From: a virus
Length of the DNA stretch: 34,152 bases
IMG/VR virus record: IMGVR_UViG_3300020190_000201
Location: 1-34,152 of that record
Direction: 5' to 3' (one strand)
The notes beneath the pieces were generated by a model, which searched no databases, was not told the DNA's origin, and saw nothing but the letters and a program-made list of their open reading frames with translations. This document shows, piece by piece, positions 7,600-28,538 of the stretch; within the stretch, counting starts at the first letter, position 1; each line of letters opens with the position of its first letter. A program made the translations under genes and the position numbers.

Positions 7600-7959
7600 A
7601 TGAAAAAATTAGAACAAGTACTTGCAGAAAATATGCGACGTTTTAGTACTAAAAATTTACGAGAAGGTGTTCGAATCGGCCTAGTTGGCGTGATTCCAAA
7701 TGTTGATTATTTTACCAAGAATCCAACCGGGACACTAGTTGTAGATGATATCGGTAGTGTATTGCAGTCAGTAAACAACGAGATGGTTGATGAAGATAAC
7801 CGCAATAATAAAATGTATAGCGATCAACTCGTACGAGGTGGCGAATACCAATACCAATTTGTTCCGAATGTCAAAACCATGCGCGCACCAGCTGGCGAGC
7901 CCGTTGTAAATCTAATGCAAAATGGCAAACCGGTTAATAGTTTTATGCCGATAAAATAA
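7600..7959 (+). CDS. Tagged virion-associated protein candidate, 119 aa
   Basis: First gene of the virion module. The N-terminus MKKLEQVLAENMRRFSTKNL carries the tag LAENMxRFxxKNL, shared with the minus-strand proteins at 19706 and 21277. The L-A-E triplet fits the (L/I)xE motif of T4-type prohead proteases. The rest (GVRIGLVGVIPNVDYFTKNP ... YQYQFVPNVKTMRAPAGEP) is not recognised. A late promoter motif lies upstream. Packaging into the capsid is inferred from the tag only. Confidence 0.7.
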   Translation: MKKLEQVLAENMRRFSTKNLREGVRIGLVGVIPNVDYFTKNPTGTLVVDDIGSVLQSVNNEMVDEDNRNNKMYSDQLVRGGEYQYQFVPNVKTMRAPAGEPVVNLMQNGKPVNSFMPIK

Positions 7960-7969
7960 TGCCATCAGC

Positions 7970-8521
7970 ATGATCCGTCTACGAGACATATTAACGGAAA
8001 TCTCTTTGGCGAGCGTAGAACCCTACGCGACCCAATTTGTGTGGCGTCAACCTCACCCGGAAGACGACATATGGGAATCGGATTTTAACGCGGAAACGGC
8101 TAGCTCGTCGACGCATCGCATCAAAATGGTGATGCAACGTTGGAGAACCCCTGTACCTGACCATGAGTATGAATATCAATTTGCTTTCATGACGCGTGAC
8201 CGCAGCGATTCAGGATGGACCACTGCCAGCCATATGACCAACACAGCAGGCGCTGTTTCGGTGCTAGCGCTACTCAAAACAGTTGCGTTAGCTATACGCG
8301 ATTTTGCCGATCAACGGCCTGATTGTACGGTTATTGACATTACCGGGTCAGATCCCGCAGCACAGAAAGGCGAACAGAAGTCACGCATATATGCTGAATT
8401 GTTTCGAGAAAATGGAATGCATACGGAATTTACCATGAAATCCTATGGAGGTAAATTGTATTTAATAAGAATGGGTATACGGGGACGCACCGCAGATGCA
8501 ACGGGAGTAAGCGATGATTAA
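7970..8521 (+). CDS. Tagged protein of unknown function, 183 aa, GC-rich gene
   Basis: The N-terminus MIRLRDILTEIS matches the pattern MIxLxxLLxE seen in the following genes. The body (HEYEYQFAFMTRDRS ... ALLKTVALAIRDFADQRPDCTVIDITGSD ... RIYAELFRENG) has a compact alpha/beta layout that I associate with a phage protein family of unknown role. Base composition is unusual: 33 of 60 bases at 8041-8100 are G or C, against about 30% in the baseplate genes. That suggests recent acquisition. The stop overlaps the next start by eight bases. Confidence 0.7.
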   Translation: MIRLRDILTEISLASVEPYATQFVWRQPHPEDDIWESDFNAETASSSTHRIKMVMQRWRTPVPDHEYEYQFAFMTRDRSDSGWTTASHMTNTAGAVSVLALLKTVALAIRDFADQRPDCTVIDITGSDPAAQKGEQKSRIYAELFRENGMHTEFTMKSYGGKLYLIRMGIRGRTADATGVSDD

Positions 8522-8831
8522 ATTGAAAACATTGATGATGGAACAACCACAAGGCAACACAATGTCTGAAGGTGGATTATTAGATGTATTAGAACAATAC
8601 AAATCAATATTCGGTGTCGCAATTCAAAGTGTTGAATCGCTACAATATGATATTGATACCGAAGACATACTTAGAAAAAATGCTATCACATTGCTCAAAG
8701 CATACGTTGACTATCTTGATGCAACACGCGAAACATTTAATACCTATGGTGATTCACAAAATTTAGATGACATCATTTTGGATGCAACGGATGGAATAAA
8801 AACTTCAATTGATAGCAATTTAGAATATTAA
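8514..8831 (+). CDS. Tagged hypothetical protein, 105 aa
   Basis: The start overlaps the end of the upstream gene, indicating an operon. The N-terminus MIKLKTLMMEQPQGN fits the recurring tag, with a possible cut after M-M-E. The remainder (LLDVLEQYKSIFGVAIQSVE ... ITLLKAYVDYLDATRETFN) is acidic and helical, probably a helical bundle. No named family. Two bases after its stop the next tagged gene starts. Confidence 0.65.
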   Translation: MIKLKTLMMEQPQGNTMSEGGLLDVLEQYKSIFGVAIQSVESLQYDIDTEDILRKNAITLLKAYVDYLDATRETFNTYGDSQNLDDIILDATDGIKTSIDSNLEY

Positions 8832-8833
8832 TC

Positions 8834-9295
8834 ATGATACAATTAAAACGATTATTAATGGAATCAGACCCAAAGCTGGGTACTGGTAAAAAACCTGCAG
8901 GTTCGGGTAGAAGATTGTATACAGACGAGAACCCAAGTGATACGGTATCTGTAAAGTTTAAAACAAAACAAGATATTGTTGACACATTAAACAAAGATAG
9001 TTTCAAATCTAAACCCCATAAGAGACAATCACAAATTATTAATTTGATTCATCAGCGAGTTAGAGCCGCATATCAAAATGCAAAAGACCCCGAAACAAAA
9101 CAAAGGTTAAAACGAGGTCTTGATTATATTGAATCAGTGAAAGAAAAGTCAAAAGAAAAAACTGCAAGATTACAAAAACAAAAACAGAATGAAGCAGAAT
9201 TGACAGAAAAGTGTTGGACAGGTTACACCAAAAAGGGTATGAAAACAATGTTTGGTAAAAGATATCCTAATTGTGTTAAAAAAACAAAGAAATAA
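8834..9295 (+). CDS. Tagged protein with C-terminal CWTGYTKKGMK motif, 153 aa
   Basis: The N-terminus MIQLKRLLMESDPKLG has the tag with L-M-E followed by S, a good fit to the T4 gp21 cleavage rule. A central basic domain contains GSGRRLYTDENPSDTV and a helix QRLKRGLDYIESVKE. The tail ELTEKCWTGYTKKGMKTMFG ends KRYPNCVKKTKK. I know this two-cysteine CWxGYxxxGxK tail from many T4-like phage virion proteins of marine and freshwater metagenomes. Role inside the virion is probable; exact function unknown. Confidence 0.7.
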   Translation: MIQLKRLLMESDPKLGTGKKPAGSGRRLYTDENPSDTVSVKFKTKQDIVDTLNKDSFKSKPHKRQSQIINLIHQRVRAAYQNAKDPETKQRLKRGLDYIESVKEKSKEKTARLQKQKQNEAELTEKCWTGYTKKGMKTMFGKRYPNCVKKTKK

Positions 9296-9333
9296 ACTTG
9301 CAACAAAACATAAAAGTATATGATTATGCGAAA

Positions 9334-9353
9334 GGTAGAAATTTTGCTACATA
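9334..9353 (+). repeat. 20-base intergenic repeat, copy 2
   Basis: GGTAGAAATTTTGCTACATA, 18 of 20 identical to 7446-7465. Confidence 0.5.
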
Positions 9354-9367
9354 TCCTTTATGATGAG

Positions 9368-9448
9368 CAGGCCTGGAAGGACGCTCTATATAGCTTAAGC
9401 TGTTACAATGTACTAGTGTTGTACAACGTACTAATATTTATACGTATA
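9368..9448. promoter_or_regulatory. Palindrome-dense regulatory region before the acetyltransferase gene
   Basis: Perfect palindromes in 81 bases: CAGGCCTG (9368), CTATATAG (9386), AGCTTAAGCT (9392), ACTAGT (9412), GTTGTACAAC (9418) and TATACGTATA (9439, including the A of the start codon). The late motif ATATTTAT sits at 9434-9441. Likely operator or promoter region; inferred. Confidence 0.45.
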
Positions 9449-9948
9449 TGATTCTGCTTAAACAACTTCTTATAGAGGAACTTCGAAACAATGGTATCGC
9501 GGCATCCATTGAACCATTTCGTGCTGTAGCGGAATGGGATCCGGCGTTTCGTCGCTTTGTATTTGATGGCGGCACGTATGCTGTATTAAGAACTAGAGTG
9601 TTATCTCCTACACTTAAAGCTAAGATGCGTTGGGAATTTGTTAGAGCCGGAGAATCTGCAGATCAACCGATTGAAGTTGTTGAATTGCAGAGTATTCGTA
9701 GTCCAGAAAATGCACAAGGTCAAGGTTTAGGACGTAAAGCGCTTAAACAAATTACCAATGTAGCTGATGCTAATAATATGTGGATTATGCTCGAAGCAAT
9801 ACCATATGGACCAAAATCATTGAATTCTTGGCAACTAGTTGAATTTTATAAATCTGCAGGATTTGAAGTAATTTCATATGGTGCTAGGCCCATGATGTTG
9901 AGAAAACCAACGCAGAATGATTTTTCTGGCGTAAAAGATACTTTATAG
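9448..9948 (+). CDS. GNAT-family N-acetyltransferase with N-terminal capsid-type tag, 166 aa
   Basis: It would transfer an acetyl group from acetyl-CoA to an unknown amine or lysine. Motif A is SPENAQGQGLGRKAL (residues 85-99; the acetyl-CoA loop QGQGLG is at 90-95) and motif B is WQLVEFYKSAGFEV (128-141). The preceding strand VVELQSI is as expected for GNAT. The first residues MILLKQLLIEE match the tag of the neighbouring genes rather than a normal GNAT start. That makes it a candidate for packaging and delivery with the DNA, like T4 Alt. Delivery is inference; the GNAT call is solid. Confidence 0.85.
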   Translation: MILLKQLLIEELRNNGIAASIEPFRAVAEWDPAFRRFVFDGGTYAVLRTRVLSPTLKAKMRWEFVRAGESADQPIEVVELQSIRSPENAQGQGLGRKALKQITNVADANNMWIMLEAIPYGPKSLNSWQLVEFYKSAGFEVISYGARPMMLRKPTQNDFSGVKDTL

Positions 9949-9956
9949 ATATTTAT
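9949..9956 (+). promoter_or_regulatory. Late promoter motif ATATTTAT
   Basis: ATATTTATAAAA, 17 bases before the ATG at 9974; it overlaps no gene. Confidence 0.5.
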
Positions 9957-9973
9957 AAAATATAACAAGGAAT

Positions 9974-10438
9974 ATGATGATTAAATTAAAAAATATTTTA
10001 TCTGAAGGATATGCATGGGAACGTCAAGAAGGCAAACCGTTGCCAACGCTTAAAGATGTTCAAGAAGCTTATGATGCTAAAGGCGTTAAGGATGCAGTAG
10101 ACGAAGCCGAAGAAGGTGCTAAACCTGATTATATCGATTTAGATGGCGATGGTAACGAAGAAGAATCAATGAAGGATGCTGCTGCTGATATGCAAAAGAA
10201 GGCTGAACAAAATCCGAAAGATGAAAAATCAAAAGAAGATTTGCCTAGCAAAGATTTAGCTATTCATCAGATGAAAGAAGAAGAAACAGAAGAAGAGTCA
10301 GATCATGCTGCAGATGATGAATCAGCTAATATGGATGTTTTGAATATGGGTTCGTTAGAAGAGTCTAAGTTCTGGGGACGTGTTAAAGGTAACTTGCATG
10401 GACATGACTATATTTTGAGAGAAGCATTTAAAAAATAG
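9974..10438 (+). CDS. Tagged acidic protein with DLDGDG motif, 154 aa
   Basis: It starts ATGATG; the second ATG (9977) is better spaced from AAGGA and would give MIKLKNILSEGYAWE. The L-S-E followed by G is a textbook T4-type prohead cleavage site. YIDLDGDGNEEES (residues 53-65) resembles a calcium-binding EF-hand loop but lacks the final acidic ligand. The middle is extremely acidic and low in complexity (KEEETEEESDHAADDESAN), and the C-terminus is FWGRVKGNLHGHDYILREAF. Probably a capsid-internal or scaffold-like protein; not proven. Confidence 0.7.
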   Translation: MMIKLKNILSEGYAWERQEGKPLPTLKDVQEAYDAKGVKDAVDEAEEGAKPDYIDLDGDGNEEESMKDAAADMQKKAEQNPKDEKSKEDLPSKDLAIHQMKEEETEEESDHAADDESANMDVLNMGSLEESKFWGRVKGNLHGHDYILREAFKK

Positions 10439-10461
10439 TGCAAACCGGTGACAATAAATGA

Positions 10462-10487
10462 GTGCGTCTTTCGGGCGCACTTTTTTT
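10462..10487 (+). terminator. Intrinsic terminator
   Basis: 7-bp stem GTGCGTC/GGCGCAC with a 5-base loop, followed by seven T (10481-10487). It ends the 9974 transcript. Confidence 0.85.
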
Positions 10488-10494
10488 ATGTTCA

Positions 10495-10502
10495 ATATTT
10501 AT
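10495..10502 (+). promoter_or_regulatory. Late promoter motif ATATTTAT
   Basis: Lies between the terminator at 10462 and the ATG at 10507, only four bases before the ATG. If it is a -10-like box the transcript would start at or after that ATG. Confidence 0.4.
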
Positions 10503-10506
10503 TAAT

Positions 10507-10629
10507 ATGAATAGGTTATTTGCTTTCATTAGTGGTACTGTAATATTTTGCATTGCTGGGTTATTTTCGTTATATGAAATTATAAAAAAGGGAATAAATG
10601 GCCGCAAAAGCAAAAACAAACACAGTTAG
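10507..10629 (+). CDS. Small membrane protein, 40 aa
   Basis: The product MNRLFAFISGTVIFCIAGLF continues SLYEIIKKGINGRKSKNKHS: one membrane helix and a strongly basic tail. It overlaps the next gene by 32 bases in a different frame. If the late promoter motif gives a transcript starting at or after 10507, this ORF may be leaderless or untranslated. Supported by its composition and the absence of another explanation for the stretch. Confidence 0.45.
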   Translation: MNRLFAFISGTVIFCIAGLFSLYEIIKKGINGRKSKNKHS

Positions 10630-10744
10630 TAGTTATATTCAAAAGCCGAAAGTTAAAAGACCTGGGGTTCATGCAAAAAGCAAAACAAGTAAAAACAAAA
10701 CAAGTAAAAATTACGTGAAAGCGTATCGAGCACAAGGTAAATAA
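10598..10744 (+). CDS. Small basic protein, 48 aa
   Basis: A Lys/Ser/Thr-rich peptide: MAAKAKTNTVSSYIQKPKVK, then RPGVHAKSKTSKNKTSKNYV and KAYRAQGK. This small family (TNTVSSYIQKP...RPGVHAK...SKNYxKxYRGQG) is familiar to me from many uncultured phage genomes; its function is not known. The high positive charge suits nucleic-acid binding or packaging with DNA. Preceded by AAAAAGGGAATAAATG, which offers a ribosome-binding site. Confidence 0.7.
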   Translation: MAAKAKTNTVSSYIQKPKVKRPGVHAKSKTSKNKTSKNYVKAYRAQGK

Positions 10745-10755
10745 AATAAAAGGAT

Positions 10756-11133
10756 ATGATGTTTGAAAAATTAATTTCTACATTAATGGCTTCTAGAGAC
10801 CAAGCACACATTTTTCATTGGCAAACGACAGGCCCTGGATCATTTGCAGCACATCTAGCATTGAATGCTTATTATGATGCATTGCCGGATATGATTGATG
10901 CATTAGTTGAAACACATCAAGGTAAACATGGAATTTTAAAAGGATATGAGCCAGCTGAACGTTTTGATGAATATTCTAAAGAAACTGCAATTAAATACTT
11001 TAAAGCATTGATAACATATGTAGAACGAGTATATAATAAGATACCAAAAGAAGATACTAATATTATTAATCAGCTTGATGCATTTAAAGATCTTATTTAT
11101 ACTACAATATATAAATTGGAGAATTTACAATGA
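10756..11133 (+). CDS. Dps-like mini-ferritin (ferritin-like fold), 125 aa
   Basis: The sequence FHWQTTGPGSFAAHLALNAY continues YDALPDMIDALVETH. H21, H33, D48 and E52 are spaced 12, 15 and 4 residues apart. That is the exact spacing of the Dps ferroxidase ligands (H31, H43, D58, E62 in Listeria Dps), including the Trp after the first His. The protein is shorter than cellular Dps (about 150-170 aa) and lacks a basic tail. Phage proteins of this size fall in families such as DUF5856. A role in iron/peroxide detoxification or DNA protection is inferred. Start ATGATG; the second ATG is equally possible. The stop overlaps the next start (ATGA). Confidence 0.75.
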   Translation: MMFEKLISTLMASRDQAHIFHWQTTGPGSFAAHLALNAYYDALPDMIDALVETHQGKHGILKGYEPAERFDEYSKETAIKYFKALITYVERVYNKIPKEDTNIINQLDAFKDLIYTTIYKLENLQ

Positions 11134-11657
11134 TACAAATATTTGATCATACGAATCCTAAACACATACAAATTCTTCGTGAAGAAATCGTTCGTGCAAA
11201 AAAATTAATGTCAGAAGCATATTCAGCTGATCGTTTATGGGGTAACATGTTACCAGATGAACGCAAAGGTGCATTATATATTGCTAAAGTAGAAAATCCT
11301 GATGAATACTTAGATGCAGCTTGGGATGATATACCAGCTGACATTCAAGACTTGATTGATTTATCAGATTACGAACGAGCAACAGAAAATAATACCGGCC
11401 GTAGTTTATATCGTGGAACTAAATATGCAATGACCCAAGACCCCGCAGCAAATCGTTTTGTAATGGCATTTTTAAAGCGTTTAAATAAAGCTGCAATTGA
11501 AGAATTAACAGTTAAAGAGATGTCTGATTTAAATGTTAATCTTTGGAAATTCGTTAAACGCAATGAACCAAAGATTGATTATGATCCGTCTAAATCTGGA
11601 TTAGATGCCGATTCTTACAAGGCAGGTCAGGGTCGTGGCAACTGGCAAGGAGATTAG
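11130..11657 (+). CDS. Hypothetical protein, 175 aa, with internal LMSEA site
   Basis: Translationally coupled to the Dps-like gene (ATGA overlap at 11130-11133). The N-terminus MIQIFDHTNPKHIQILREEI leads to KKLMSEAYS (residues 24-32), where M-S-E followed by A resembles a prohead cleavage site, deeper than in the other tagged proteins. The rest is helical with DPAANRFVMAFLKRLNKAAI and a Gly-rich end KAGQGRGNWQGD. Not recognised. A reading frame without a start continues right after it (11654-11857). Confidence 0.65.
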   Translation: MIQIFDHTNPKHIQILREEIVRAKKLMSEAYSADRLWGNMLPDERKGALYIAKVENPDEYLDAAWDDIPADIQDLIDLSDYERATENNTGRSLYRGTKYAMTQDPAANRFVMAFLKRLNKAAIEELTVKEMSDLNVNLWKFVKRNEPKIDYDPSKSGLDADSYKAGQGRGNWQGD

Positions 11658-11857
11658 AATGGAATCAGGGAGATGCACGTTTTATTCATATAATTGATAC
11701 TGATAAAAATGGTATCGAAACTACTAGATTTTTAAACATATCATGTATACAACAGATATATCAACGAGGAAATGATATATACATTGAAATGACTGATTAT
11801 ACAGAAATGTGTGTAAAAAATACTAATATCAACGTATTTATGGATCGTTTTATATGA
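11654..11857 (+). pseudogene. Coding-like frame without a usual start codon (frameshifted or non-AUG)
   Basis: The frame reads ARFIHIIDTDKNGIETTRFL, NISCIQQIYQRGNDIYIEMT and DYTEMCVKNTNINVFMDRFI, then stops. It looks fully protein-like, with beta strands and a conserved-looking DRF(I) end. No ATG, GTG or TTG in frame precedes the conserved part. AAGGAG (11647-11652) is followed by ATG 11659, which is in another frame and stops after 12 codons. A one-base shift would join that start to the good frame. Alternatives are a sequencing error, a programmed shift, -1 readthrough from the gene at 11130, or ATT initiation. Confidence 0.5.
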
Positions 11858-11862
11858 TCTAA

Positions 11863-11870
11863 ATATTTAT
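11863..11870 (+). promoter_or_regulatory. Late promoter motif ATATTTAT
   Basis: ATATTTATAATAAATT, 22 bases before the histone-like gene at 11893. Confidence 0.5.
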
Positions 11871-11892
11871 AATAAATTAAAAAAAGGTTTTT

Positions 11893-12078
11893 ATGACATC
11901 ACAACAATTATTTGAAACGATGAAAGAACATTGGTTATCTTTCGAAGAAAATCATGTACGCTTTACAGAAAAAGGAACAAAAGCTGCTGGCGTTAGAGCA
12001 CGTAAATCAATTAACGAATTAAAAAAATTATCAAGCAAATATCGTTCAACACAATTAGCAGAATCTAAAACAAAATGA
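11893..12078 (+). CDS. Histone H1-like (Hc1-type) DNA-binding protein, 61 aa
   Basis: Residues 24-51 (FTEKGTKAAGVRARKSINEL, KKLSSKYR) match the pattern F-x-EKGxKAAGxRARK...ELKxLxxxxR of Hc1-like nucleoid proteins. Those are common in Bacteroidota and also known from Chlamydiae. The protein is short and basic, with no extended Lys/Pro tail. It would bind and compact DNA. It sits in the virion module behind a late promoter motif and overlaps the next gene by four bases (ATGA), so it may be packaged or act late. The family call is based on the motif only. Confidence 0.7.
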   Translation: MTSQQLFETMKEHWLSFEENHVRFTEKGTKAAGVRARKSINELKKLSSKYRSTQLAESKTK

Positions 12079-12905
12079 AATCACTGATGGAACAGGTTTT
12101 AACGCCAATTCTTCAACAACTCATTAATGAGCAAGATGATGCAACGGCTGCAGCTCCAGCACCTGCTGGGCCTGCAGGACCTGGTCCAGATGTAGAAACT
12201 AATAATGCTCCGGCAGATTCTAAAAGTTCTCCATTTACGCCTGCAGAAAAAAAATTCTTAGGTAAATTTGATGCATTTGGAAGCAGACAATTGGGAGTTA
12301 TTTATTCTATTTCTGATATTGGTATACGAGAATTTATTGCACGATCAGGAAAAGATTTAAATTTAAATTCTAATATATTGCTTTCATTATTAAAAAATGG
12401 TATAATTAAAATTGTTCCTTACACAGGTTGGGGTAGAAATGATGATTATACCATTGAATTGCAATTATCATTAGATGATATTGCTGGTTTAGGCGATGAA
12501 GATCGCAAAAAAATAGAAAAGGGTGCCGCACAAACCGATGCCGGTGCCGGCGTTCAGGTTGCTAGTTTTATGAAATATGGAGACATATTAACAGAATCTG
12601 TAAATATTGCAAAAAATTTGCTACAAAATGGACTAAATGAAGCTAAAAAGTCAGATGTAAAAATTTACGTTGAAAAATCTAGATTACTTAAGCGCTTTCC
12701 TAAAGAATTTATTTACCATTTACGCAAAATTGTTAGTACAATGGATAAAAAAACCAAAAATAACATGGAAAAAGAGCGTTTAGTTGCAGATATACTAGAT
12801 AATTTACAAGTTAATTTAAAATTAACACCAAAAGACATCAAACAATCATACGAATTTCATAGAAATCAAAAACGTTTACAAAAAACACTTGATAAGATTA
12901 AATAA
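12075..12905 (+). CDS. Tagged virion protein candidate with Ala/Pro linker, 276 aa
   Basis: The start overlaps the histone-like gene. The N-terminus MKSLMEQVLTPILQQLINEQ carries I-N-E at residues 17-19, fitting the (L/I)xE rule. A flexible linker follows (AAAPAPAGPAGPGPDV, about 25-41). Next comes a winged-helix-sized domain, FTPAEKKFLGKFDAFGSRQL to IKIVPYTGWG, then a charged helical C-terminus (KNNMEKERLVADILDNLQVN ... KRLQKTLDKIK). Family not recognised. The linker and tag suggest a processed structural or internal protein. Confidence 0.65.
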   Translation: MKSLMEQVLTPILQQLINEQDDATAAAPAPAGPAGPGPDVETNNAPADSKSSPFTPAEKKFLGKFDAFGSRQLGVIYSISDIGIREFIARSGKDLNLNSNILLSLLKNGIIKIVPYTGWGRNDDYTIELQLSLDDIAGLGDEDRKKIEKGAAQTDAGAGVQVASFMKYGDILTESVNIAKNLLQNGLNEAKKSDVKIYVEKSRLLKRFPKEFIYHLRKIVSTMDKKTKNNMEKERLVADILDNLQVNLKLTPKDIKQSYEFHRNQKRLQKTLDKIK

Positions 12906-12907
12906 TC

Positions 12908-12941
12908 TTTTGAAAATGATGTTTTTTTACTTATTATATTG
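12908..12941 (+). promoter_or_regulatory. Weak promoter candidate before 12966
   Basis: TTTTG (12908-12912) and TATATTG (12935-12941) resemble the Bacteroidota TTTG / TAnnTTTG pair with a 22-base gap. The match is imperfect. Confidence 0.3.
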
Positions 12942-12965
12942 ATATAAAAATAAAAAATATAAAAA

Positions 12966-13175
12966 ATGAGTTATTACATTGCAAAAGTCCAATTAACGGA
13001 CACCGTGGATACCCCAAAAGGTCCAAAAGAAAAAAAAGTTACCGAAACTTATTTAGTTGAAGCTCTTTCGGTTACTGAAGCAGAAGCAAAAGTAGTAAAA
13101 GATTTCCAAGGTTATACCATGGACTTTGAAGTTAAATCAGTTTCAGTAAGTAAAATCATCAAAATTATTGAATAA
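12966..13175 (+). CDS. DUF4494-like protein, 69 aa
   Basis: The protein reads MSYYIAKVQLTDTVDTPKGP, then KKVTETYLVEALSVTEAEAK and ends FEVKSVSVSKIIKIIE. The core 'K-x-T-E-x-YLV-x-A-x-S-x-TEAEA' is the hallmark I associate with DUF4494, a small beta-rich family found in Bacteroidota and their phages. The function of the family is unknown. It is first of a tight operon reaching 15672; its stop TAA shares an A with the next ATG (TAATG). Confidence 0.7.
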   Translation: MSYYIAKVQLTDTVDTPKGPKEKKVTETYLVEALSVTEAEAKVVKDFQGYTMDFEVKSVSVSKIIKIIE

Positions 13176-13447
13176 TGTATAAACCCGGAGATGAAGTAAT
13201 CGTCGTTCAAGACAATGTTAATAGAGTTGGTGTGATCTTAGATAAACATGTAATTAGTAAACAAGTTGTCTATGACGTATTATTAGAAAATCGTTCTGCG
13301 ATAATCTATGTTCCAACAACGCAATCCGCAAAAACAAGAATTAATAAGTATTTAACGAGTCTTTTATGTGAAACTGGAGTTATTAAATCTACAATTCCAT
13401 ATAAAGAAATGTTAGCAAATGAAGAACTTCCAATTTGTCATGCATAA
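13175..13447 (+). CDS. Hypothetical protein, 90 aa, KOW/SH3-like start
   Basis: Coupled to the upstream gene through TAATG. The start MYKPGDEVIVVQDNVNRVGV followed by ILDKHVISKQVVYDVLLENR is the typical beta hairpin of a KOW/SH3-like barrel (GDxVxV...GxIxxK...YxV). The second half is helical and unrecognised. Its stop again shares an A with the following ATG. Confidence 0.65.
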   Translation: MYKPGDEVIVVQDNVNRVGVILDKHVISKQVVYDVLLENRSAIIYVPTTQSAKTRINKYLTSLLCETGVIKSTIPYKEMLANEELPICHA

Positions 13448-14109: not shown

Positions 14110-14115
14110 AAAACA

Positions 14116-14508: not shown

Positions 14509-14511
14509 TAA

Positions 14512-15112: not shown

Positions 15113-15672
15113 TGGCAAAAAAACAAAACGTTCCAGAAACAATTCAAAAACAATTTGATAAACCTCAATTTAAAATAGGAGATCCTGTATTCTTCATATG
15201 GTTGGGTTCTAAAAAATATGGTTATGTTACAGCATTTAAAACAACTAATTGGGGTATTCAATATACGGTTGAAGAAGACGATACGCGCTATCCTTGTGGC
15301 ATTGAAGTTAAAACGCATCGAACAACGTATACAACGGGATACATCCGTTACGACGAAACAAGAGCTATTGGACGAGATGAGCTCATTACACGCATCCAAA
15401 CCGGACACTCAAGCACTTATTCAGAGCTTTTTATCGACACCCGAAGGTCAACGTTACAAAGCAGAAGCGAGCCTGCAAATAGCAAACGTGTATCTACAAA
15501 AAATACTAAAAGAGTTAAATCGACAAGATCTAACATTAAGGGAAAAGATGTTGTTCAATCTAGCTCTAATGGAAATTCTACGGGAACTAGAAAAAAACGA
15601 GAAAATAATGAACTCGATGCAGCAATACAACGACAACGAGATTTTCTAAATGGTTTTATTAAAGAGTCCTAG
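15112..15672 (+). CDS. KOW/SH3-like protein with basic low-complexity region, 186 aa
   Basis: ATG at 15112 (TAATGG coupling) is chosen over an in-frame TTG at 15100. Residues 1-85 (KFKIGDPVFF-type strand: FKIGDPVFFIWLGSKKYGYV, then GIQYTVEEDDTRYPCGIEVK) form an SH3-like barrel. Residues 100-165 are Ser/Thr/Lys/Arg-rich. The end ELDAAIQRQRDFLNGFIKES is helical and conserved in related phages that I recall. The low-complexity part overlaps a second, helical-looking frame (15377-15649). The stop overlaps the convergent minus-strand gene by 14 bases. Confidence 0.7.
   Translation: MAKKQNVPETIQKQFDKPQFKIGDPVFFIWLGSKKYGYVTAFKTTNWGIQYTVEEDDTRYPCGIEVKTHRTTYTTGYIRYDETRAIGRDELITRIQTGHSSTYSELFIDTRRSTLQSRSEPANSKRVSTKNTKRVKSTRSNIKGKDVVQSSSNGNSTGTRKKRENNELDAAIQRQRDFLNGFIKES
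15377..15649 (+). CDS. Possible overprinted protein, 90 aa, inside the 15112 gene
   Basis: In the +1 frame relative to the 15112 gene. It reads MSSLHASKPDTQALIQSFLS, TPEGQRYKAEASLQIANVYL, QKILKELNRQDLTLREKMLF and ends LEKNEKIMNSMQQYNDNEIF. It has a regular amphipathic helical composition, unlike the Ser/Lys-rich frame it overlaps. The frame is open further upstream, but this ATG follows GGACGAG, a weak ribosome site. Both frames may be used, or this one may be an accident of composition. Confidence 0.4.
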   Translation: MSSLHASKPDTQALIQSFLSTPEGQRYKAEASLQIANVYLQKILKELNRQDLTLREKMLFNLALMEILRELEKNEKIMNSMQQYNDNEIF

Positions 15673-17284
15673 CATTTAACCAATTATAATAAGCTACATC
15701 ATAATCTAGTTCTGTATAATTTTTTAGGCCCATTCGTTTCATACTGATTCCCCATTGTTCATATGATGGAAATTCATTAAGATTATCATAATATCGATAT
15801 GATTTGTTACCTGATTTAGTTTTTACCATCCAATCGCGCCAACGTTTAACACCAGGATATGAGTCAAATAACGATTCCAAAGATTCCGTACCACCGGTTC
15901 TAGAACCTGTAATTTGGGGTGAATTTAAAATATTCATAATAGCTTTTTCACTAACTTCAGGCACTCTGCCACGCGTTGTTGGCCAAATTTTTATAAATTC
16001 ATTGCCAATCTTTTTTAATACAATGGCATCATTTGCACCAATACCTTTACCCATTAAACTTTGCAATTTCAACCATCGGTCCATATTCCAAGATTTAAAA
16101 TTAGGAGTTTTAATACTGAAACCGGCTCTTTGAATAATATAAGCGAGAGTGGAAGGGGGCCAAATATTATTTGGATCAATGCCCTGGGGCGATTTTTCTT
16201 TGTCTAACTTCTTTTTGTTGTCTAACTTCTTCTTGTTGTTTAGTTTCGAGTTGCTTAATAATTTATCTTCAATAGCTTGAAGCCGCGGACCTAATGTTTT
16301 TGTAAATTCTGGGTCATCAATCATTTTGATTATTTTTTGTACATTGCCTACTTTTAATGCATTAACATCGCGGCGTCTCATTGCATCCAGTACTAAATTA
16401 AATTTAACTCTATTAATATCTGATTTATTTAACTTAATCAACACTGCATATAACTCATTATATTCTTGTTGTGATATACGATTTTTTTGCTTTTCCGTTT
16501 TTAATAATTGCAAGATTTTATCTTTAGACATATTCCAGAATGATTCTTCTCGTAGTAAATATGAAAAATTGGGTCTAGCTAAACCAGTTAAATTTCTAAT
16601 AGAATAAACTCCGGCTAAAACTGGTTGTTTTTGGGCTGCAGCTGCTCTTGATTTGAAAAAGCTTTTTAACGCTTCCCATCCTGAGCTAAATCCGCCCATT
16701 TTATAAGCTGCATAAGCCGCTACTCCACTTAACATCACATAAAACCATGGATTGCTTAACAAATTTTCGTCTTTTACTTTAACACCACCTTCATCTTCTA
16801 CATTTGTAAATTGTTGTGCTAATTTTGGATATTGTTTTTCAACTAAACTCCAGTCTACTCTAGATTTATAAACTTTTAAAACGTCAGCTGGTGCACCGAT
16901 TTTTATCAACTGTCGTAGTATCGGTACCCATACATTTAGCTCATCTGAATCAATATAAGTACTAATATATTTGCTAAGATTTTGTTTTGTATTCACATTA
17001 ACTATTTTATTTACTTGCCGAAAAGTTTCCATATTAGGTATAGTTTTAAATGCAGCAACTAATTTTTTTGTATCATCTCTAGAAAAAGTACCTCTACCTT
17101 TAGTATTGTAAATAGTTTGTGCTATTTTAAATGCTTGTTTTGTATCTAATTTATTACTAGTATCTTCCGGCTTCGGCTTATTATCATCTTCCGGTTTCGG
17201 CTTCGGCTTCGGCTTTAACACCATTTGTTCAACTAATGCTAATCGTATTGATTCTTCTAGAATAATATTTGATATTGTTTTCAT
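15659..17284 (-). CDS. Large tagged virion protein candidate, 541 aa
   Basis: The N-terminus MKTISNIILEESIRLALVEQ carries L-V-E followed by Q. It is followed by a KPKPKPKPEDDNKPKPED linker (about 24-41). Residues 48-130 form a helical domain (FKIAQTIYNTKGRGTFSRDD) related to residues 36-110 of the protein encoded at 17298. A hydrophobic segment WFYVMLSGVAAYAAYKMGGF is near residue 190. A duplicated NNKKKLDNKKKLDKEK run is near 355. It is the second gene of a minus-strand pair, 13 bases downstream of the 17298 gene. Probably a virion or ejected protein; no enzymatic motif seen. Confidence 0.65.
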   Translation of the reverse strand: MKTISNIILEESIRLALVEQMVLKPKPKPKPEDDNKPKPEDTSNKLDTKQAFKIAQTIYNTKGRGTFSRDDTKKLVAAFKTIPNMETFRQVNKIVNVNTKQNLSKYISTYIDSDELNVWVPILRQLIKIGAPADVLKVYKSRVDWSLVEKQYPKLAQQFTNVEDEGGVKVKDENLLSNPWFYVMLSGVAAYAAYKMGGFSSGWEALKSFFKSRAAAAQKQPVLAGVYSIRNLTGLARPNFSYLLREESFWNMSKDKILQLLKTEKQKNRISQQEYNELYAVLIKLNKSDINRVKFNLVLDAMRRRDVNALKVGNVQKIIKMIDDPEFTKTLGPRLQAIEDKLLSNSKLNNKKKLDNKKKLDKEKSPQGIDPNNIWPPSTLAYIIQRAGFSIKTPNFKSWNMDRWLKLQSLMGKGIGANDAIVLKKIGNEFIKIWPTTRGRVPEVSEKAIMNILNSPQITGSRTGGTESLESLFDSYPGVKRWRDWMVKTKSGNKSYRYYDNLNEFPSYEQWGISMKRMGLKNYTELDYDVAYYNWLNARTL

Positions 17285-17297
17285 AATTATGAATATT

Positions 17298-19037
17298 CTA
17301 TTTAAGTTTTATATTTTGTATATCTGAAAGTTTAACCCATGCTCTATTAATTTCATCAACTCCAGTCATTACAGCCGGTATAGTTATGTATGCATATTCA
17401 TCTTGTATTTTATCTACAATAAATAAAACAGGACCGTTAGTATTAGAATCAGTTTCAATAGTTCTTGTTCCAGCTTTTTCCCATAATGGTTCCATACCCG
17501 GATTATAAGTAAATATTGTAATTTGCTGTCCTGGTTTCTTTTTAAATGAATAAAAACGTCCTTCATATTGTTTAGATAATGACTCTACATCACGAAACCA
17601 TTGTTCTTTCTGTTGTTGAGACATTTTATACTCAATCCATTGTTGCCACCAAGATAATGCTACTGGTAATCCTTCTGTAAATAATTTAGCTATCCAAGCT
17701 GCTTGAGCTCCAGCAGCTACCGGAACTACCCATTCTGAATTGATTCCTAAGCGTCGAGCTAAATCTAGTACAGCTGTTTTAGGAGCTCGAATAAATTCAC
17801 GCAATACTTTTGCTATCATACGTAAGCCATCAAATATCGGTTTAATTTCTTGAATATAATATTCAGCCGATGTTGATTTAAATGCTTGTAATGCATTAGC
17901 TGCCCAACTCTTAATAGGATCTGGTGTAGAATTTTTTAATCGTGTTAGAATATTTTTTATCATACTCAATGATTTTGCAATTCCACTTCTAATAATACCT
18001 TGAAGATTATCTATTACTTTTGCACCGCCGATTAGCAGATTACCTAGTTTAGTTTTAGAAAATGCTTCAACAATTTGAAATAAATTACTAAACATCTTTT
18101 GTGATATTTTCACAAGAATACCGCCAGATTTGATCCATTTAATAAATGAATTAAATCGTTGCGCAATTGGCCTTAATAGTTTACCAGCTCCAGCACCTAC
18201 GAACACTCCTAAAGAATCAACAAATAATTCAAACCATGCATCATCTTGACCATCAGCAATTCTTGTCACATCATCAATTGCTAATATTCCAAATAATACG
18301 GCTACTGGTATCTTTGTCCACATACTTGGCATCACTGATGCTGCAGTTGTTATTCCTATACCTGCTGGAGAATATAACATTGAGCGCAAACCGCCCGGGG
18401 CATTTATAAATGATGTCCACGTATTATGAGTCAAATAGTATTCTGTACTAACAAATGGTTTCAAAAATATATCAGATGCAGTTACACCTGTTTTTGATTG
18501 TTGATCAAATTCATCTCGTTGTGCAATATCTTTATACATTGCAGGATCTTGAATCATTTTATGTATTTGGTTTATAGATCTACCTGGCAAATCACCATAA
18601 CGCATTTCATCATAATTTGATCCTTTGCCGGCTAATGTTGATAATGCAGTTTTTAACATATCATATGAAACTAGTTTTTTAACAGTCCAATCATAATGTG
18701 ATGCTGGCAATACGTCATATAAATGAATAGCAGCTTGTATTCTATCACTATCACTTAAAAAGCTTTTTAAATATGCTGCAATGCCCGGACCATCTGTTAA
18801 TTTTTTTAATTCGGAAAATACTTGTTGATATTGTTTGATATTTTTAATTTGACGAATTGCGTCTAGAGCCGATGCTTCGTCATCTATTATACCTTTTGCA
18901 TCATAAATTTGTTGTGCAATGCGTTGAGCATTAAACTTTGCCGTAGGCGCTTGTCGAATCACAGCACCACGTTGTTCAGCTATTATTGCTTCAAATTCTT
19001 CTTGTATGATTTGTTCTAACGTTAGTGATGCATTCAT
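17298..19037 (-). CDS. Large tagged virion protein candidate, 579 aa, with hydrophobic segments
   Basis: The N-terminus MNASLTLEQIIQEEFEAIIA has I-A-E followed by Q near residue 20. Residues 36-110 (RIAQQIYDAKGIIDDEASAL ...) are a helical domain shared with the protein at 15659. Hydrophobic stretches include ITTAASVMPSMWTKIPVAVL with FGILAIDDV, and SLGVFVGAGAGKLL. The C-terminal 100 residues are beta-rich (QITIFTYNPGMEPLWEKAGT). Such membrane-active segments in a virion protein would suit injection through the host membrane, which is speculative. A late motif lies four bases before the start. Confidence 0.65.
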   Translation of the reverse strand: MNASLTLEQIIQEEFEAIIAEQRGAVIRQAPTAKFNAQRIAQQIYDAKGIIDDEASALDAIRQIKNIKQYQQVFSELKKLTDGPGIAAYLKSFLSDSDRIQAAIHLYDVLPASHYDWTVKKLVSYDMLKTALSTLAGKGSNYDEMRYGDLPGRSINQIHKMIQDPAMYKDIAQRDEFDQQSKTGVTASDIFLKPFVSTEYYLTHNTWTSFINAPGGLRSMLYSPAGIGITTAASVMPSMWTKIPVAVLFGILAIDDVTRIADGQDDAWFELFVDSLGVFVGAGAGKLLRPIAQRFNSFIKWIKSGGILVKISQKMFSNLFQIVEAFSKTKLGNLLIGGAKVIDNLQGIIRSGIAKSLSMIKNILTRLKNSTPDPIKSWAANALQAFKSTSAEYYIQEIKPIFDGLRMIAKVLREFIRAPKTAVLDLARRLGINSEWVVPVAAGAQAAWIAKLFTEGLPVALSWWQQWIEYKMSQQQKEQWFRDVESLSKQYEGRFYSFKKKPGQQITIFTYNPGMEPLWEKAGTRTIETDSNTNGPVLFIVDKIQDEYAYITIPAVMTGVDEINRAWVKLSDIQNIKLK

Positions 19038-19041
19038 ATAA

Positions 19042-19049
19042 ATAAATAT
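19042..19049 (-). promoter_or_regulatory. Late promoter motif ATATTTAT (minus strand)
   Basis: Reads ATATTTAT towards the 17298-19037 gene, four bases before its ATG. Confidence 0.4.
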
Positions 19050-19071
19050 TAAGTAAGAAAGTTTAGGATAT

Positions 19072-19104
19072 GATTGGATTCTTGTTTTTTATTTCTTATA
19101 TTAA
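19072..19104 (+). promoter_or_regulatory. Early-type promoter of the first moron gene
   Basis: GATTGGATTC (19072-19081) and TTATATTAA (19096-19104); GGAT-to-core spacing is 20, as in the early module. The leader AAAAATAAGAGACATG follows. Confidence 0.55.
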
Positions 19105-19132
19105 TAATATAAACCACTTAAAAATAAGAGAC

Positions 19133-19654
19133 ATGAAAAATTTATTTCTTTCCGTAGTAGTATTTATTTCTGCTAATGCATTTGCTCAACGAAATGCACA
19201 AGATAGTTTGAATCTTTTAAAAGTTCAAGAATTAAATGCTGTAATCAATCAAAAACTTTCCGGTTCTGTATCTGAACAAGATGTTTTAGATTTCGTAACA
19301 TATATGTGGAATTCTAAAGACACATCTGGATTGCAATATATTTCTATGATTAATCCTGATCTAACTGAAATGAATGCAGATCCGAATCAATTAGTTGATT
19401 TGAATTATATTTGTCAAGCATTTACTCAATTAAAAAATAAAAATAATGTACGTGTTGAATATATAGGCAAAGATGATTATTCAAAAAGTTATAGTAAATC
19501 ATATGAAGTAAATAGTGATTATATGGTATATTATAAAGTTTATTTTACTAATTCAACTAGTTTTGGGCCAAATACACCGAATTACTTTGATATTCGAATC
19601 GATTGTATTAATGGTAAGTTTACATTAATGTTTGGAATTTTAGCTAAAATATAA
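19133..19654 (+). CDS. Secreted protein of unknown function, 173 aa (moron candidate)
   Basis: The ATG at the leader AAAATAAGAGACATG is preferred over an in-frame ATG at 19070 that lies inside the promoter. The signal peptide MKNLFLSVVVFISANAFA is followed by Q, a cut pattern typical of Bacteroidota. The mature part (RNAQDSLNLLKVQELNAVIN ... VRVEYIGKDDYSKSYSKSYE ... FDIRIDCINGKFTLMFGIL) has helices followed by a beta sheet. It is a plus-strand gene between minus-strand virion genes, with its own early-type promoter and terminator. It probably acts in the periplasm or at the cell surface early in infection; inferred. Confidence 0.7.
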   Translation: MKNLFLSVVVFISANAFAQRNAQDSLNLLKVQELNAVINQKLSGSVSEQDVLDFVTYMWNSKDTSGLQYISMINPDLTEMNADPNQLVDLNYICQAFTQLKNKNNVRVEYIGKDDYSKSYSKSYEVNSDYMVYYKVYFTNSTSFGPNTPNYFDIRIDCINGKFTLMFGILAKI

Positions 19655-19661
19655 GATAGTA

Positions 19662-19687
19662 AAAAGGGGAGATAATTCTCCCCTTTT
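19662..19687. terminator. Bidirectional intrinsic terminator
   Basis: Stem AAAAGGGGAGA/TCTCCCCTTTT (11 bp) with loop TAAT, T-tract on + and A-tract before the stem for the minus strand. It serves the convergent genes ending at 19654 (+) and 19706 (-). Confidence 0.9.
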
Positions 19688-19705
19688 TTTTATGAAGTTA
19701 TTATT

Positions 19706-20509
19706 TTATTTTAATTTAGCTACTGCTGCGTTATATGCACTTTGTACATCTGGTAAGATTTCTCTAGAATTTAAACCTGCAACTTCTTCAGGTTGCGTTT
19801 TGATTAAATCATTCATTAATCCTTGAATTTTAGTAACTTTGTCGCCGGTTAAAGAAACAAGAATTTCGTTTGGTCCAAATGTAAATCTTCTATAAAGTTC
19901 TTTATTTGTTTCTGGATCATATACAACAGATAATCTAGCAAACTTATAAGGAATTAATACTCCTGTTGATAATCTAACGTCTTTAGCAGTCAATTGAACA
20001 TCAACACTTTTTCGAACTCCTGATTCTGCTGTATTTAATGTTTGTGTAATTTTTGGATCTAAAGATACATTACTTCCGGTTTGTTTATTAATTGATGCAA
20101 TAACATCATTTATTGCTGTTAAAGGTTTTTTAGGCGCTAAAATACTTCCACCTGAATTTACAATCCATTCCTCTGAAAAATCTTTACCAGAACCATATGC
20201 AGTATCTAACTTATATGTAGTATTATTAAATAAACGCAATTTGAATAAATTTAATTTGTTCATGACATCTGGATAGTTTATAGTAATATCTAATGGAACA
20301 CCTGCTTTTCCATTTGTTAATGGCAACAATGCTTTAACTGATCCAACAGCTTTACCGGCTGATGTCTTAACATTAAACATTTGTTCAACTTTTTGGGCTG
20401 GTGTTTTTGTCTTTGGTTCTTCTAATTGCTCTTGCAATTTGCGTAAATCTGATTCAGATAAATTTTTAACTCCGAAGCGAAGCATGTTTTCTGCTAATGT
20501 ATGTTTCAT
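19706..20509 (-). CDS. Tagged virion protein candidate, 267 aa
   Basis: The N-terminus MKHTLAENMLRFGVKNLSES carries the long tag LAENMLRFGxKNLSESD, nearly identical to that of the 21277 protein and related to the 7600 protein. It has possible prohead cleavage sites after L-A-E and L-S-E. The body (VGSVKALLPLTNGKAGVPLD ... SVDVQLTAKDVRLSTGVLIP ... FTFGPNEILVSLTGDKVTKI) is beta-rich and not recognised. A late motif ATATTTAT lies 31 bases upstream. Confidence 0.65.
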   Translation of the reverse strand: MKHTLAENMLRFGVKNLSESDLRKLQEQLEEPKTKTPAQKVEQMFNVKTSAGKAVGSVKALLPLTNGKAGVPLDITINYPDVMNKLNLFKLRLFNNTTYKLDTAYGSGKDFSEEWIVNSGGSILAPKKPLTAINDVIASINKQTGSNVSLDPKITQTLNTAESGVRKSVDVQLTAKDVRLSTGVLIPYKFARLSVVYDPETNKELYRRFTFGPNEILVSLTGDKVTKIQGLMNDLIKTQPEEVAGLNSREILPDVQSAYNAAVAKLK

Positions 20510-20540
20510 TGGTTCCTTTAAGGTTTTTAAACTTTTTTAT

Positions 20541-20548
20541 ATAAATAT
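20541..20548 (-). promoter_or_regulatory. Late promoter motif ATATTTAT (minus strand)
   Basis: ATATTTATATAAAA in minus orientation, 31 bases before the start of the 19706-20509 gene. It overlaps the start of the plus-strand early-type promoter box. Confidence 0.45.
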
Positions 20549-20585
20549 TAGGATTTTAGAAAAAAAATACTTATATTAATAGTAT
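20547..20585 (+). promoter_or_regulatory. Early-type promoter of the second moron gene
   Basis: ATTAGGAT is at 20547-20554 and TTATATTAA at 20571-20579, exactly 24 bases start-to-start. The leader AAAAATAAGAGACATG follows. Confidence 0.65.
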
Positions 20586-20598
20586 AAAAATAAGAGAC

Positions 20599-21234
20599 AT
20601 GAAAAAGTTAATTGTATTCATACTACCATTCATTGTATCCGCACAGGTTGATAATTATCAAACTTTTGATTCAATTGAATATTATTTCATTGAATTTTTA
20701 AATGACTATCGAAAAATAGAATATTCAAAAATTCCATCATTAATAAAAGGTAGTGAAATTAGCAATGCTGCATTACATCATACAAAATATTTAGTAAATA
20801 TGGAATCAGCTGATGGATTAAAACGATTAATTGGCCATGAAGAAACGCCAGCTGCATTAGGATTACAATACAAAGGTAATGATACTTTATTATACTTGTT
20901 TAGTGATCGTAGAACGTATTACGACTCAGCTGATATTTTTAGTATATATGGAGAAGTTGTTCAAATGCACGGGGCATATGAAAGAACAGTTACTATAGTT
21001 GGTCAAAAAGAAATAGCTCGACAAATTTTACAATCTTTTTTAAATAGTAAACTTCATAAAGAAATTTTAGATATATGGGAATATACTCATATTGGTATTA
21101 GTATTATTCAATCTAAAAAATCTAATGCTTTTTATATATGCATACTCCCAGGTGTTTTAAATTCATCTAAATATTTACATACAAATACATTTTTTCCATA
21201 TTATTATGGTAATAAGTTAGAAGATATCCAGTAA
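20599..21234 (+). CDS. Secreted CAP-like protein, 211 aa (moron candidate)
   Basis: The signal peptide MKKLIVFILPFIVSA is followed by Q. The mature part resembles the CAP/SCP superfamily. FLNDYRKIEYSKIPSLIKGS with AALHHTKYLV matches its first helices and H. GHEETPAALG gives the second His region. FLNSKLHKEI with HIGISIIQSKKSNAFYICIL fits its 'SxxHxxxI...vGigi......y.vq' end. The match is by pattern, not by alignment. It is a plus-strand gene between minus-strand virion genes with an early-type promoter, suggesting an early host-surface or periplasmic function, e.g. superinfection exclusion (speculative). Confidence 0.7.
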   Translation: MKKLIVFILPFIVSAQVDNYQTFDSIEYYFIEFLNDYRKIEYSKIPSLIKGSEISNAALHHTKYLVNMESADGLKRLIGHEETPAALGLQYKGNDTLLYLFSDRRTYYDSADIFSIYGEVVQMHGAYERTVTIVGQKEIARQILQSFLNSKLHKEILDIWEYTHIGISIIQSKKSNAFYICILPGVLNSSKYLHTNTFFPYYYGNKLEDIQ

Positions 21235-21235
21235 A

Positions 21236-21258
21236 AAAGCGGGCTTAAAACCCGCTTT
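21236..21258. terminator. Bidirectional intrinsic terminator
   Basis: Stem AAAGCGGG/CCCGCTTT with loop CTTAAAA, between the convergent ends at 21234 (+) and 21277 (-). Confidence 0.88.
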
Positions 21259-21276
21259 CTTTATAAATTATTTATA

Positions 21277-22905
21277 TTAATATCCGCCGGAAGCACCTTT
21301 TCGAACATTTTGATTAGTACGACGATTTTGCCAATCATCGCCGCCAACTTTTAGCGAATTTGGTCTACTTGTTAATTTTACGGTATCGCTATCTGTTGTT
21401 AATACCATTCCTAAATTTTGTAAAGATGTTTTAATTGGTCTAGCTTTAACAAGTTGTGCTTTATCCTTGCCGCCTACTATTAAACCCATTGTCAAAGATC
21501 TTTCTGTTTCGCGTTTTCCTATATAACGTAAACGTATTCCAAATTGACGAAATGATGCAGATCGACTATATGATCCTGGTTGGTCTTTTTGATATTCAAT
21601 TTGACCAGATATTGATAATTCCAATTGACCATATTGTCCTGGATTTGGGTGTGTTGATTTATTTTTTTTAGGATTTTCATCAATAACGCCATCGGTATCT
21701 GTAATGCGTACGTCGTTAGTAAAGGTTGTTTGAGATAAATCTAACCAACTAACTTTTTGTAATTGCAATCGGATTGCTTCTTGCAATGATGTATTTCTGT
21801 CTTTAGCTAATTTTTTATTTTTACCAGATCCCCCAGTGTTATCAATTGAATCATATGATTTTACTGGTTTTCCATCATTCGAATGTGAAAAATCTGTTAC
21901 GCCGGCATAAAAATTACTAGCTGAAGAAATTGTGTTCATTGTATTAACTTTTAATACACCCCCAGCGTCAACAATATCGCGGCCACTTTTTGTAATAACT
22001 TGTTTGCCTTCAGTTACTGAAAACATGTTATTTAAAATTTGATTTTCAATAGATTTTGCCATATTTGCTGCTTCGGTTGCAACAACGTCTAACTTATTAA
22101 CTGAAAATACTTTTGTATTTTTTGGAATTGATAATGTAACTGGTTTAATAACAGCAACAGTTTGTGATGCTCTTAATGTTTTTTGTCCTAAACCTTTTTC
22201 TATATTTACTAAGATAGTGCTTAATGGCTCTTTTTGTCTAGTAATAAACTCTAAATCATTTTCATATATTCTAATACTATTAGCAACATTATCAGAAATA
22301 GTGCCAGCAGTTGAGTTTGCAGTGTTTAACTCATTTAATGAAATTGATATAATACTAGCAGCTTCTTTTAATTGTTGATCAGATAATTCTTTAGTTGATT
22401 GTAATTTAATTTTTAAAATATCATCATCGGATAATTCATATGCTTCGAACGCCCATCGTTGTGATTTTCTAAAGAATTTTTTTAAATCTCGTTTTTGAGA
22501 TTGACTTAATTTTTTGATAACATCTGAATTTAAAATAGTTAATAATGCATCATAATATCCAGTAGCTAATTGATTTTTAATATCAATTGATAATTTTTTA
22601 TAATCATCAGAATCAGCTAAATCAGAGTTCATTTTATTTAACATATCAGTTGATGTTACTAAATCTATGTCTTTCTCTTTTGTTACAGTATAAGTAGCTC
22701 CGCCAATTGCGCCTCCTTTTTGTACTCCTCGCACACGATTTCGACGAGGCTCTGTTTGAAATCCGATACTTTTAGATTTAGTTACAGTTGCAGGATCTTC
22801 TTCTTGTTCACTCAAATTATTAATAATTTTTTTATCAGATTCAGATAAATTTTTTGAACCAAAACGAAGCATATTTTCTGCAAGTATTTGTTCTAATTTT
22901 TTCAT
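21277..22905 (-). CDS. Large tagged virion protein candidate, 542 aa
   Basis: The N-terminus MKKLEQILAENMLRFGSKNL continues SESDKKIINNLSEQEEDPAT: the long tag with up to three (L/I)xE-type sites (L-A-E, L-S-E, L-S-E). A helical middle (SRDLKKFFRKSQRWAFEAYE-like region near 150) is followed by a beta-rich C-terminus (LELSISGQIEYQKDQPGSYS, FRQFGIRLRYIGKRETERSL). It ends in a Gly/Asn/Arg-rich tail. No family recognised. A late motif ATATTTAT lies 29 bases upstream in minus orientation. Confidence 0.65.
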   Translation of the reverse strand: MKKLEQILAENMLRFGSKNLSESDKKIINNLSEQEEDPATVTKSKSIGFQTEPRRNRVRGVQKGGAIGGATYTVTKEKDIDLVTSTDMLNKMNSDLADSDDYKKLSIDIKNQLATGYYDALLTILNSDVIKKLSQSQKRDLKKFFRKSQRWAFEAYELSDDDILKIKLQSTKELSDQQLKEAASIISISLNELNTANSTAGTISDNVANSIRIYENDLEFITRQKEPLSTILVNIEKGLGQKTLRASQTVAVIKPVTLSIPKNTKVFSVNKLDVVATEAANMAKSIENQILNNMFSVTEGKQVITKSGRDIVDAGGVLKVNTMNTISSASNFYAGVTDFSHSNDGKPVKSYDSIDNTGGSGKNKKLAKDRNTSLQEAIRLQLQKVSWLDLSQTTFTNDVRITDTDGVIDENPKKNKSTHPNPGQYGQLELSISGQIEYQKDQPGSYSRSASFRQFGIRLRYIGKRETERSLTMGLIVGGKDKAQLVKARPIKTSLQNLGMVLTTDSDTVKLTSRPNSLKVGGDDWQNRRTNQNVRKGASGGY

Positions 22906-25229: not shown

Positions 25230-25230
25230 T

Positions 25231-26207: not shown

Positions 26208-26225
26208 TATTAAAGGATTTACGTT

Positions 26226-27678: not shown

Positions 27679-27687
27679 AAGTAAACC

Positions 27688-28533: not shown

Positions 28534-28538
28534 TCTAC

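Follow-up and report, generated by a model that had tools for sequence, protein, structure and literature searches.

Twelve or more proteins of an uncultured T4 relative, otherwise unrelated to one another, begin with short N-terminal tags that are, in our judgment, very probably T4-type capsid-targeting propeptides, carried here on far more proteins than in T4 and including a multi-site variant seen only in uncultured relatives. The proteins are encoded in the complete 34,152-base IMG/VR virus record IMGVR_UViG_3300020190_000201 (the window) and are named below by the first position of their open reading frames (ORFs). The original prediction, made from the letters of the window, proposed that eleven proteins share an N-terminal peptide ending in (L/I)xE that directs them into the capsid. 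All eleven are ORFs with the N-termini it quoted (9974 with an extra M), and the capsid-targeting reading gained support in every sequence test that was run save a weak one concerning site purging.

Tag types and their N-terminal anchoring

Three types of tags were distinguished, all of which terminate in (L/I/M/V)xE with Q or A as the commonest next residue. Type A (MIxLKxLLxE) is about 10 residues long and has a single site. Type B (M(K)xxILAENMLRFGxKNLSE, usually followed by a third (L/I/M)xE) has up to three (L/I)xE sites, spaced about 12 and then 8-11 residues apart. Type C, found on 12075, 15659 and 17298, is helical and about 19-21 residues long. The tag length of 10-21 residues given in the original prediction falls short for the ENMLRF type, in which the common region reaches to about residue 27-34.

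A 10-residue profile built from 42 tags, all from outside this phage, gave scores of 11.3-22.9 bits to seven of the eleven N-termini in the window (7600, 7970, 8514, 8834, 9448, 9974 and 21277), while the best of 198 internal methionine decamers scored -2.2 bits and shuffled N-termini reached that level no more than 0.006 times per window. The longer helical tags of 12075, 15659 and 17298 are not scored by this profile and draw their support from homologues. In the reverse direction, a profile built from the seven window decamers and applied to other records at a threshold of 12 bits matched 37 of 1410 N-termini versus 4 of 5896 internal methionines, and those four matches look like mis-called (over-extended) starts of tagged genes. 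The reciprocal profile tests support reading the peptides as tags, the first of them in a non-circular way.

One alternative is that the peptides reflect a generic bias at gene starts, or a membrane or secretion signal, with no common function. Consistent with such a bias, a loose (L/I/M/V/F)xE is about as frequent near the N-terminus as at internal methionines (39% versus 33%), and this barely enriched count was discarded as evidence. What carries the signal is not a bare (L/I)xE rule but the longer motif, together with its anchoring at the N-terminus and its portability, and the strict motif stands far above the internal-methionine and shuffle controls. The tag is also confined to viral contigs. 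The type B core pattern occurred in 77 stretches among 2.9 million viral contigs, where 97 of 97 in-frame copies lay 5-11 residues from an in-frame methionine, and was absent from 257 Gb of cellular (bacterial and archaeal) genomes; in isolated phages there was no type B tag, only a single chance match (E=8). Type A followed by Q was present in 45 viral stretches, with all 42 peptide copies at an ORF start, no more than 30 residues from the upstream stop. None of the tags has a hydrophobic stretch as long as a signal peptide, and a lipoprotein-like false positive (76244 of Flavobacterium phage immuto) was readily told apart from them. Generic bias is contradicted by the profile, anchoring and cellular-genome results, and we consider it a highly implausible explanation.

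Across 49 type B proteins with distinct bodies, conservation was strong up to the second site, weaker up to a further (L/I)xE lying mostly at +20 to +26, and at background beyond it. The further site was found in 39 of the 49 proteins, whereas windows of equal size within the bodies had one in 16% of cases. It was followed by Q in 21 cases, A in 5 and G in 4 (Q, A or G in 30/39). At the position next to a tag's site, Q is enriched roughly five-fold (Fisher test p ~2e-7, uncorrected for relatedness). The residue after the site (P1') had been noted as often other than G, A or S. Its range is indeed broader, with Q strongly favored and N present at the inner ENML site, but A is common.

Tag exchange and the tagged proteins of the window

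The downstream domains proved as unrelated to one another as predicted: clustering of the bodies by BLASTP sorted 82 tagged proteins into 41 clusters, among which tags interchange, and the collection-wide type B and type A-then-Q sets fell into 32 and 19 body clusters, respectively. Exchange also occurs within single body families, as an interchangeable label predicts. The 17298 family bears MNASLTLEQIIQEEFEAIIAE-Q, MIQLKSLFNE-Q, MIHLKTLLVE-Q or MIRLKHLLFE-Q, its homologues having differing tags that nearly all terminate in (L/I/V/F)xE-Q, and members of another family (C5) have either B or A tags. At the DNA level, the tags of 7600 and 21277 are identical at 15 of 15 synonymous third positions (expected ~0.61 each), and in a pair of tags from a related record (G002) the 20 bases upstream are also common to both. 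Copying of tag DNA is supported for these two pairs, while chance seems to account for the majority of type A pairs.

The tags of the window are listed in the table together with a twelfth candidate, 11130 (KKLMSE-A), which was not among the original eleven; its homologues retain NPxHxxILxEExxRxKxIxxE. ORF 9974 begins with MM, hence the tag proper starts at the second methionine. Homologues of 7970 in three related records (G001, G002 and G005) all have a type A tag, and orthologues of 9974 in two of these (G001 and G002) are tagged as well. In the 12075 family, E19 is invariant in 14 homologues, and the next residue is usually A or Q. The LAENMLRFGxKNLSE tag is also borne by 19706. The body of 8834 matches PHROG 9737, and the GNAT match of 9448 is a weak one from Pfam, under the cut-off. 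A low-confidence structure model of the 12075 protein (predicted local distance difference test score, pLDDT, 66) gave weak fold matches of MarR type, and its body is possibly a winged helix. The 15659 protein is weakly similar to the 17298 family across the N-terminal domain, and isolated phages yielded no homologues of the 17298 or 21277 bodies.

Table. Positions of tags and related features (window coordinates unless a locus is named).
Feature	Positions	Strand	Basis
Type B tag MKKLEQVLAENMRRFSTKNLRE, 119-residue protein 7600-7959	7600..7665	+	profile score
Type A tag MIRLRDILTE, 183-residue protein 7970-8521	7970..7999	+	22.5 bits
Type A tag MIKLKTLMME then Q, 105-residue protein 8514-8831	8514..8543	+	11.3 bits
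Type A tag MIQLKRLLME, basic 153-residue protein 8834-9295	8834..8863	+	13.7 bits
Type A tag MILLKQLLIE, GNAT-like acetyltransferase 9448-9948	9448..9477	+	17.7 bits
Type A tag MIKLKNILSE, acidic 153/154-residue protein 9974-10438	9977..10006	+	22.9 bits
Candidate 29-residue tag MIQIFDHTNPKHIQILREEIVRAKKLMSE then A, protein 11130-11657	11130..11216	+	homologue conservation
Type C helical tag MKSLMEQVLTPILQQLINE then Q, 276-residue protein 12075-12905	12075..12131	+	E19 in homologues
Type C tag MKTISNIILEESIRLALVE then Q, 541-residue protein 15659-17284	17228..17284	-	N-terminal similarity
Type C tag MNASLTLEQIIQEEFEAIIAE then Q, 579-residue protein 17298-19037	18975..19037	-	homologues with other tags
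Type B tag MKHTLAENMLRFGVKNLSESDLRKLQE then Q, 267-residue protein 19706-20509	20429..20509	-	(L/I)xE at 7, 19, 27
Type B tag MKKLEQILAENMLRFGSKNLSESDKKIINNLSE then Q, 542-residue protein 21277-22905	22807..22905	-	(L/I)xE at 10, 22, 33
Overlap with contig IMGVR_UViG_3300020204_000162 (G012)	25214..34152	+	blastn, 8,939 bases, 99.94%
Type A- or B-tagged peptidoglycan-hydrolase/LysM proteins	L118:14545-16311; L123:14467-15246; L151:3024-3401	-	domain matches

Several further features of these proteins and their surroundings were observed. The C-terminus of 8834 has a CWTGYTKKGMKTMFGKRYPNCVKK motif within a region that matches several PHROGs of unknown function. Longer members of the 12075 family (loci L175, L176, L171 and L204) have a similar tag and an extra C-terminal region past the shared domain. 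The 15659 and 17298 proteins have in common an N-terminal helical domain (IAxxIYxxKG) and long hydrophobic segments, such as a membrane-active ejection protein might have. Untagged genes located within the tagged cluster encode a DUF5856/rI.-1-like protein (10756-11133) and a 61-residue histone H1-like Hc1 protein (11893-12078; Pfam E 3e-15). Elsewhere the window encodes a sigma-70-like factor (2507-3247) and an ultraviolet endonuclease, UvdE (23009-24034). A promoter motif of Bacteroidota type was present 4 times versus 3.1 expected, a count that gives no pointer to the host.

Head machinery and matching putative cleavage sites

The window includes T4-type baseplate genes, gp25-like at 29053 and gp6-like at 29495. 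With the gp6 of Microcystis phage Mel-JY01 its own gp6 shares 55% identity, and with that of immuto 41%; 239 IMG/VR stretches encode a relative. The phage is an uncultured T4 relative whose lineage is known mostly through metagenomes. A search of the window alone for the prohead protease family PF03420 gave no match because the window stops short of the head genes. The overlapping contig G012 (see table) carries the genome 29 kb beyond the window and reaches the prohead protease and core genes, and the two were taken together as a single 63-kb phage genome. The gp21-type protease that the original prediction called for is thus present (G012:2047-2661, minus strand) and is 60% identical to the Mel-JY01 protease. 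Among the large relatives, 12 of 13 encode a gp21-type protease and 10 of 13 a gp23-type capsid protein. Of 22 tag-bearing records, 8 had a PF03420 match above the cut-off; the others are fragments lacking a capsid gene, with one exception (G033, discussed below).

Sites resembling those of the tags occur in the head proteins themselves, as sequence alignment indicates. All 14 protease sequences begin with a segment that contains L/I-x-E-S/Q/N/T, and the corresponding place in T4 gp21 reads LIE-T (T4 record); the loss of nine residues from its N-terminus is believed to play a part in activating T4 gp21 (PMC9958956). In the capsid protein, QLVKE-A or -S aligns with FLTE-A of T4 gp23; the Mel-JY01 version is QLISE-A and that of immuto QIVSE-A. 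Core proteins adjoining the protease have similar N-termini (MSIFKKLYKEFFGLTE-Q, GLTE-A and GLKE-Q), and one core protein begins MxxxKKLYxxFFGLxE-Q/A. The expectation that scaffold or core proteins would show the same tag or site was thereby borne out.

Another possibility is that the peptide is an uncleaved helix that docks onto a virion part, with E in the binding face, as in DarB of phage P1. DarB has an N-terminal signal that is enough to bring a reporter into the capsid, the N-termini of the Dar proteins have no reported consensus, and P1 apparently has no separate scaffold system (PMC9024508); type C tags resemble amphipathic helices, which would suit such docking. Against this, tags of three different builds all arrive at (L/I)xE-Q/A, the point where conservation stops, and a gp21-type protease is present together with matching sites in the capsid protein and the protease. 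We regard an uncleaved docking helix as improbable.

A mechanism based on cleaved propeptides would run as follows. The tags would bind the prohead core during assembly and draw the attached protein inside, whereupon the prohead protease would remove them after (L/I/M/V)xE, the multiple sites of type B providing for redundant removal. The processed bodies would then be delivered into the host at infection.

The system is closest to that of T4, in which cleavage occurs after L/I-x-E, ten residues of internal protein (IP) III suffice for targeting, and many IPs as well as Alt are ejected (PMC9026906). Like the capsid-targeting sequence (CTS) that gp21 cuts from IPI, IPII/IPIII and Alt, the tags are short N-terminal (L/I)xE peptides on unrelated proteins, and a gp21-type protease and T4-type head genes occur in the same genome or clade. 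The differences are that about a dozen candidate tagged proteins lie in 34 kb here, versus four in T4; that multi-site type B and helical type C tags occur; that P1' is mostly Q or A; and that the bodies have no recognized similarity to IPs or Alt (the tagged window proteins gave no Pfam or PHROG match to these families). With the T4 CTS MKTYQEFIAE the tags share only the overall pattern, without a close sequence match. The closest known match to type A is MAKINELLRE, the start of T4 gp24 (T4 record), a 10-residue peptide that gp24 loses to gp21 (PMC9958956) and that is nearly the type A consensus, but which belongs to a shell protein rather than to a variable set. The heads of phiKZ, 201phi2-1 and SPN3US, which have gp175-like proteases, likewise contain many processed proteins with redundant-site propeptides (PMC9026906). 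The phiKZ rule, however, is S/A-x-E, whereas the residue two before E here is L, I, M or V and the head genes are of T4 type.

Candidate cargo and probable fate of the tagged proteins

The most widely kept tagged protein is encoded on G012, downstream of the window (L113:2077-2610, minus strand, 178 residues), and is predicted to be a minimal kinase-fold protein. Its structure model (pLDDT 84, with tag residues 1-8 disordered) matches kinase-fold entries in the PDB, APH phosphotransferases first (best E 3e-4, template modeling score 0.3-0.45), and the catalytic positions are conserved, with no variation among 16 sequences at the glycine-loop residues, K50, E57, D158/D160, N165 and D177. The protein terminates just past the DFG-like Asp, and about 20 relatives are present in the records searched, with a shorter one in immuto (103366). 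Other tagged bodies have matches to Phage_lysozyme2, to Phage_lysozyme plus LysM, or to LysM, and many are without any match; a tagged SleB-like domain was seen by eye at locus L239. T4 Alt, an ADP-ribosyltransferase, is likewise capsid-targeted. In Mel-JY01, three clustered genes (L002:10276-12718) have a common MIKLxSLxxE tag, and by eye their VWHLT...SVARSP...EMEDR-type body resembles an ADP-ribosyltransferase; the first of the three gave no Pfam match.

Cleavage of the tags could be followed by retention instead of delivery, with many tagged proteins becoming lasting parts of the head (structure, core or decoration), as exemplified by gp24, gp67 and gp68 of T4. The closest known propeptide is that of a T4 vertex protein, gp24, the core proteins of the clade have similar N-termini, and several type B bodies (200-550 residues) have no enzyme match. 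The cargo, on the other hand, varies greatly from one relative to another, and kinase-fold, GNAT-like and lysozyme bodies are among it, which is more like variable internal proteins than conserved shell parts. We consider such retention rather unlikely, and it is likely that at least several of the tagged bodies are ejected.

A number of points weigh against capsid targeting and delivery. Purging of internal (L/I)xE sites is weak, mature tagged bodies being depleted only relative to the excess in untagged proteins (0.95 versus 1.22 of shuffle expectation) and not relative to the shuffle expectation itself. The P1' residues extend beyond A, G and S. Peptidoglycan hydrolases, which myoviruses usually place in the tail or use for lysis, are among the tagged bodies. 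The bodies were called unrelated by BLASTP, and very distant homology may connect some of them. A 30-kb tag-bearing contig (G033, locus L284) has capsid and scaffold genes with no protease detected, and may be rearranged, diverged or truncated. The literature searched holds no virion proteomics for the lineage. The papers found, which cover the field in part and whose silence is not proof, contain no report of such tags in the lineage and none on Mel-JY01.

We lean somewhat toward the broader view that a large, almost uncultured T4-related lineage uses a standardized three-site propeptide (ENMLRFGxKNLSE...LxE-Q), along with shorter and helical versions, as an exchangeable address label that loads dozens of protein families, among them a minimal kinase-fold protein and peptidoglycan hydrolases, into the head, to be delivered at infection. 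Virions of this phage probably bring a far larger set of proteins into bacteria than those of T4 do. Proteins carried in the capsid act ahead of any phage gene expression; the T4 examples are IPI, which blocks a restriction enzyme, and Alt, which modifies RNA polymerase (PMC9026906). With a readable label, a sequence search can be used to ask which proteins a phage injects. The label singles out tens of protein families here as candidate first-strike effectors, and almost all of them are of unknown function. The tags also suggest new delivery labels beyond the single CTS of T4, and would allow a test of how prohead-protease specificity and the tags evolve jointly.

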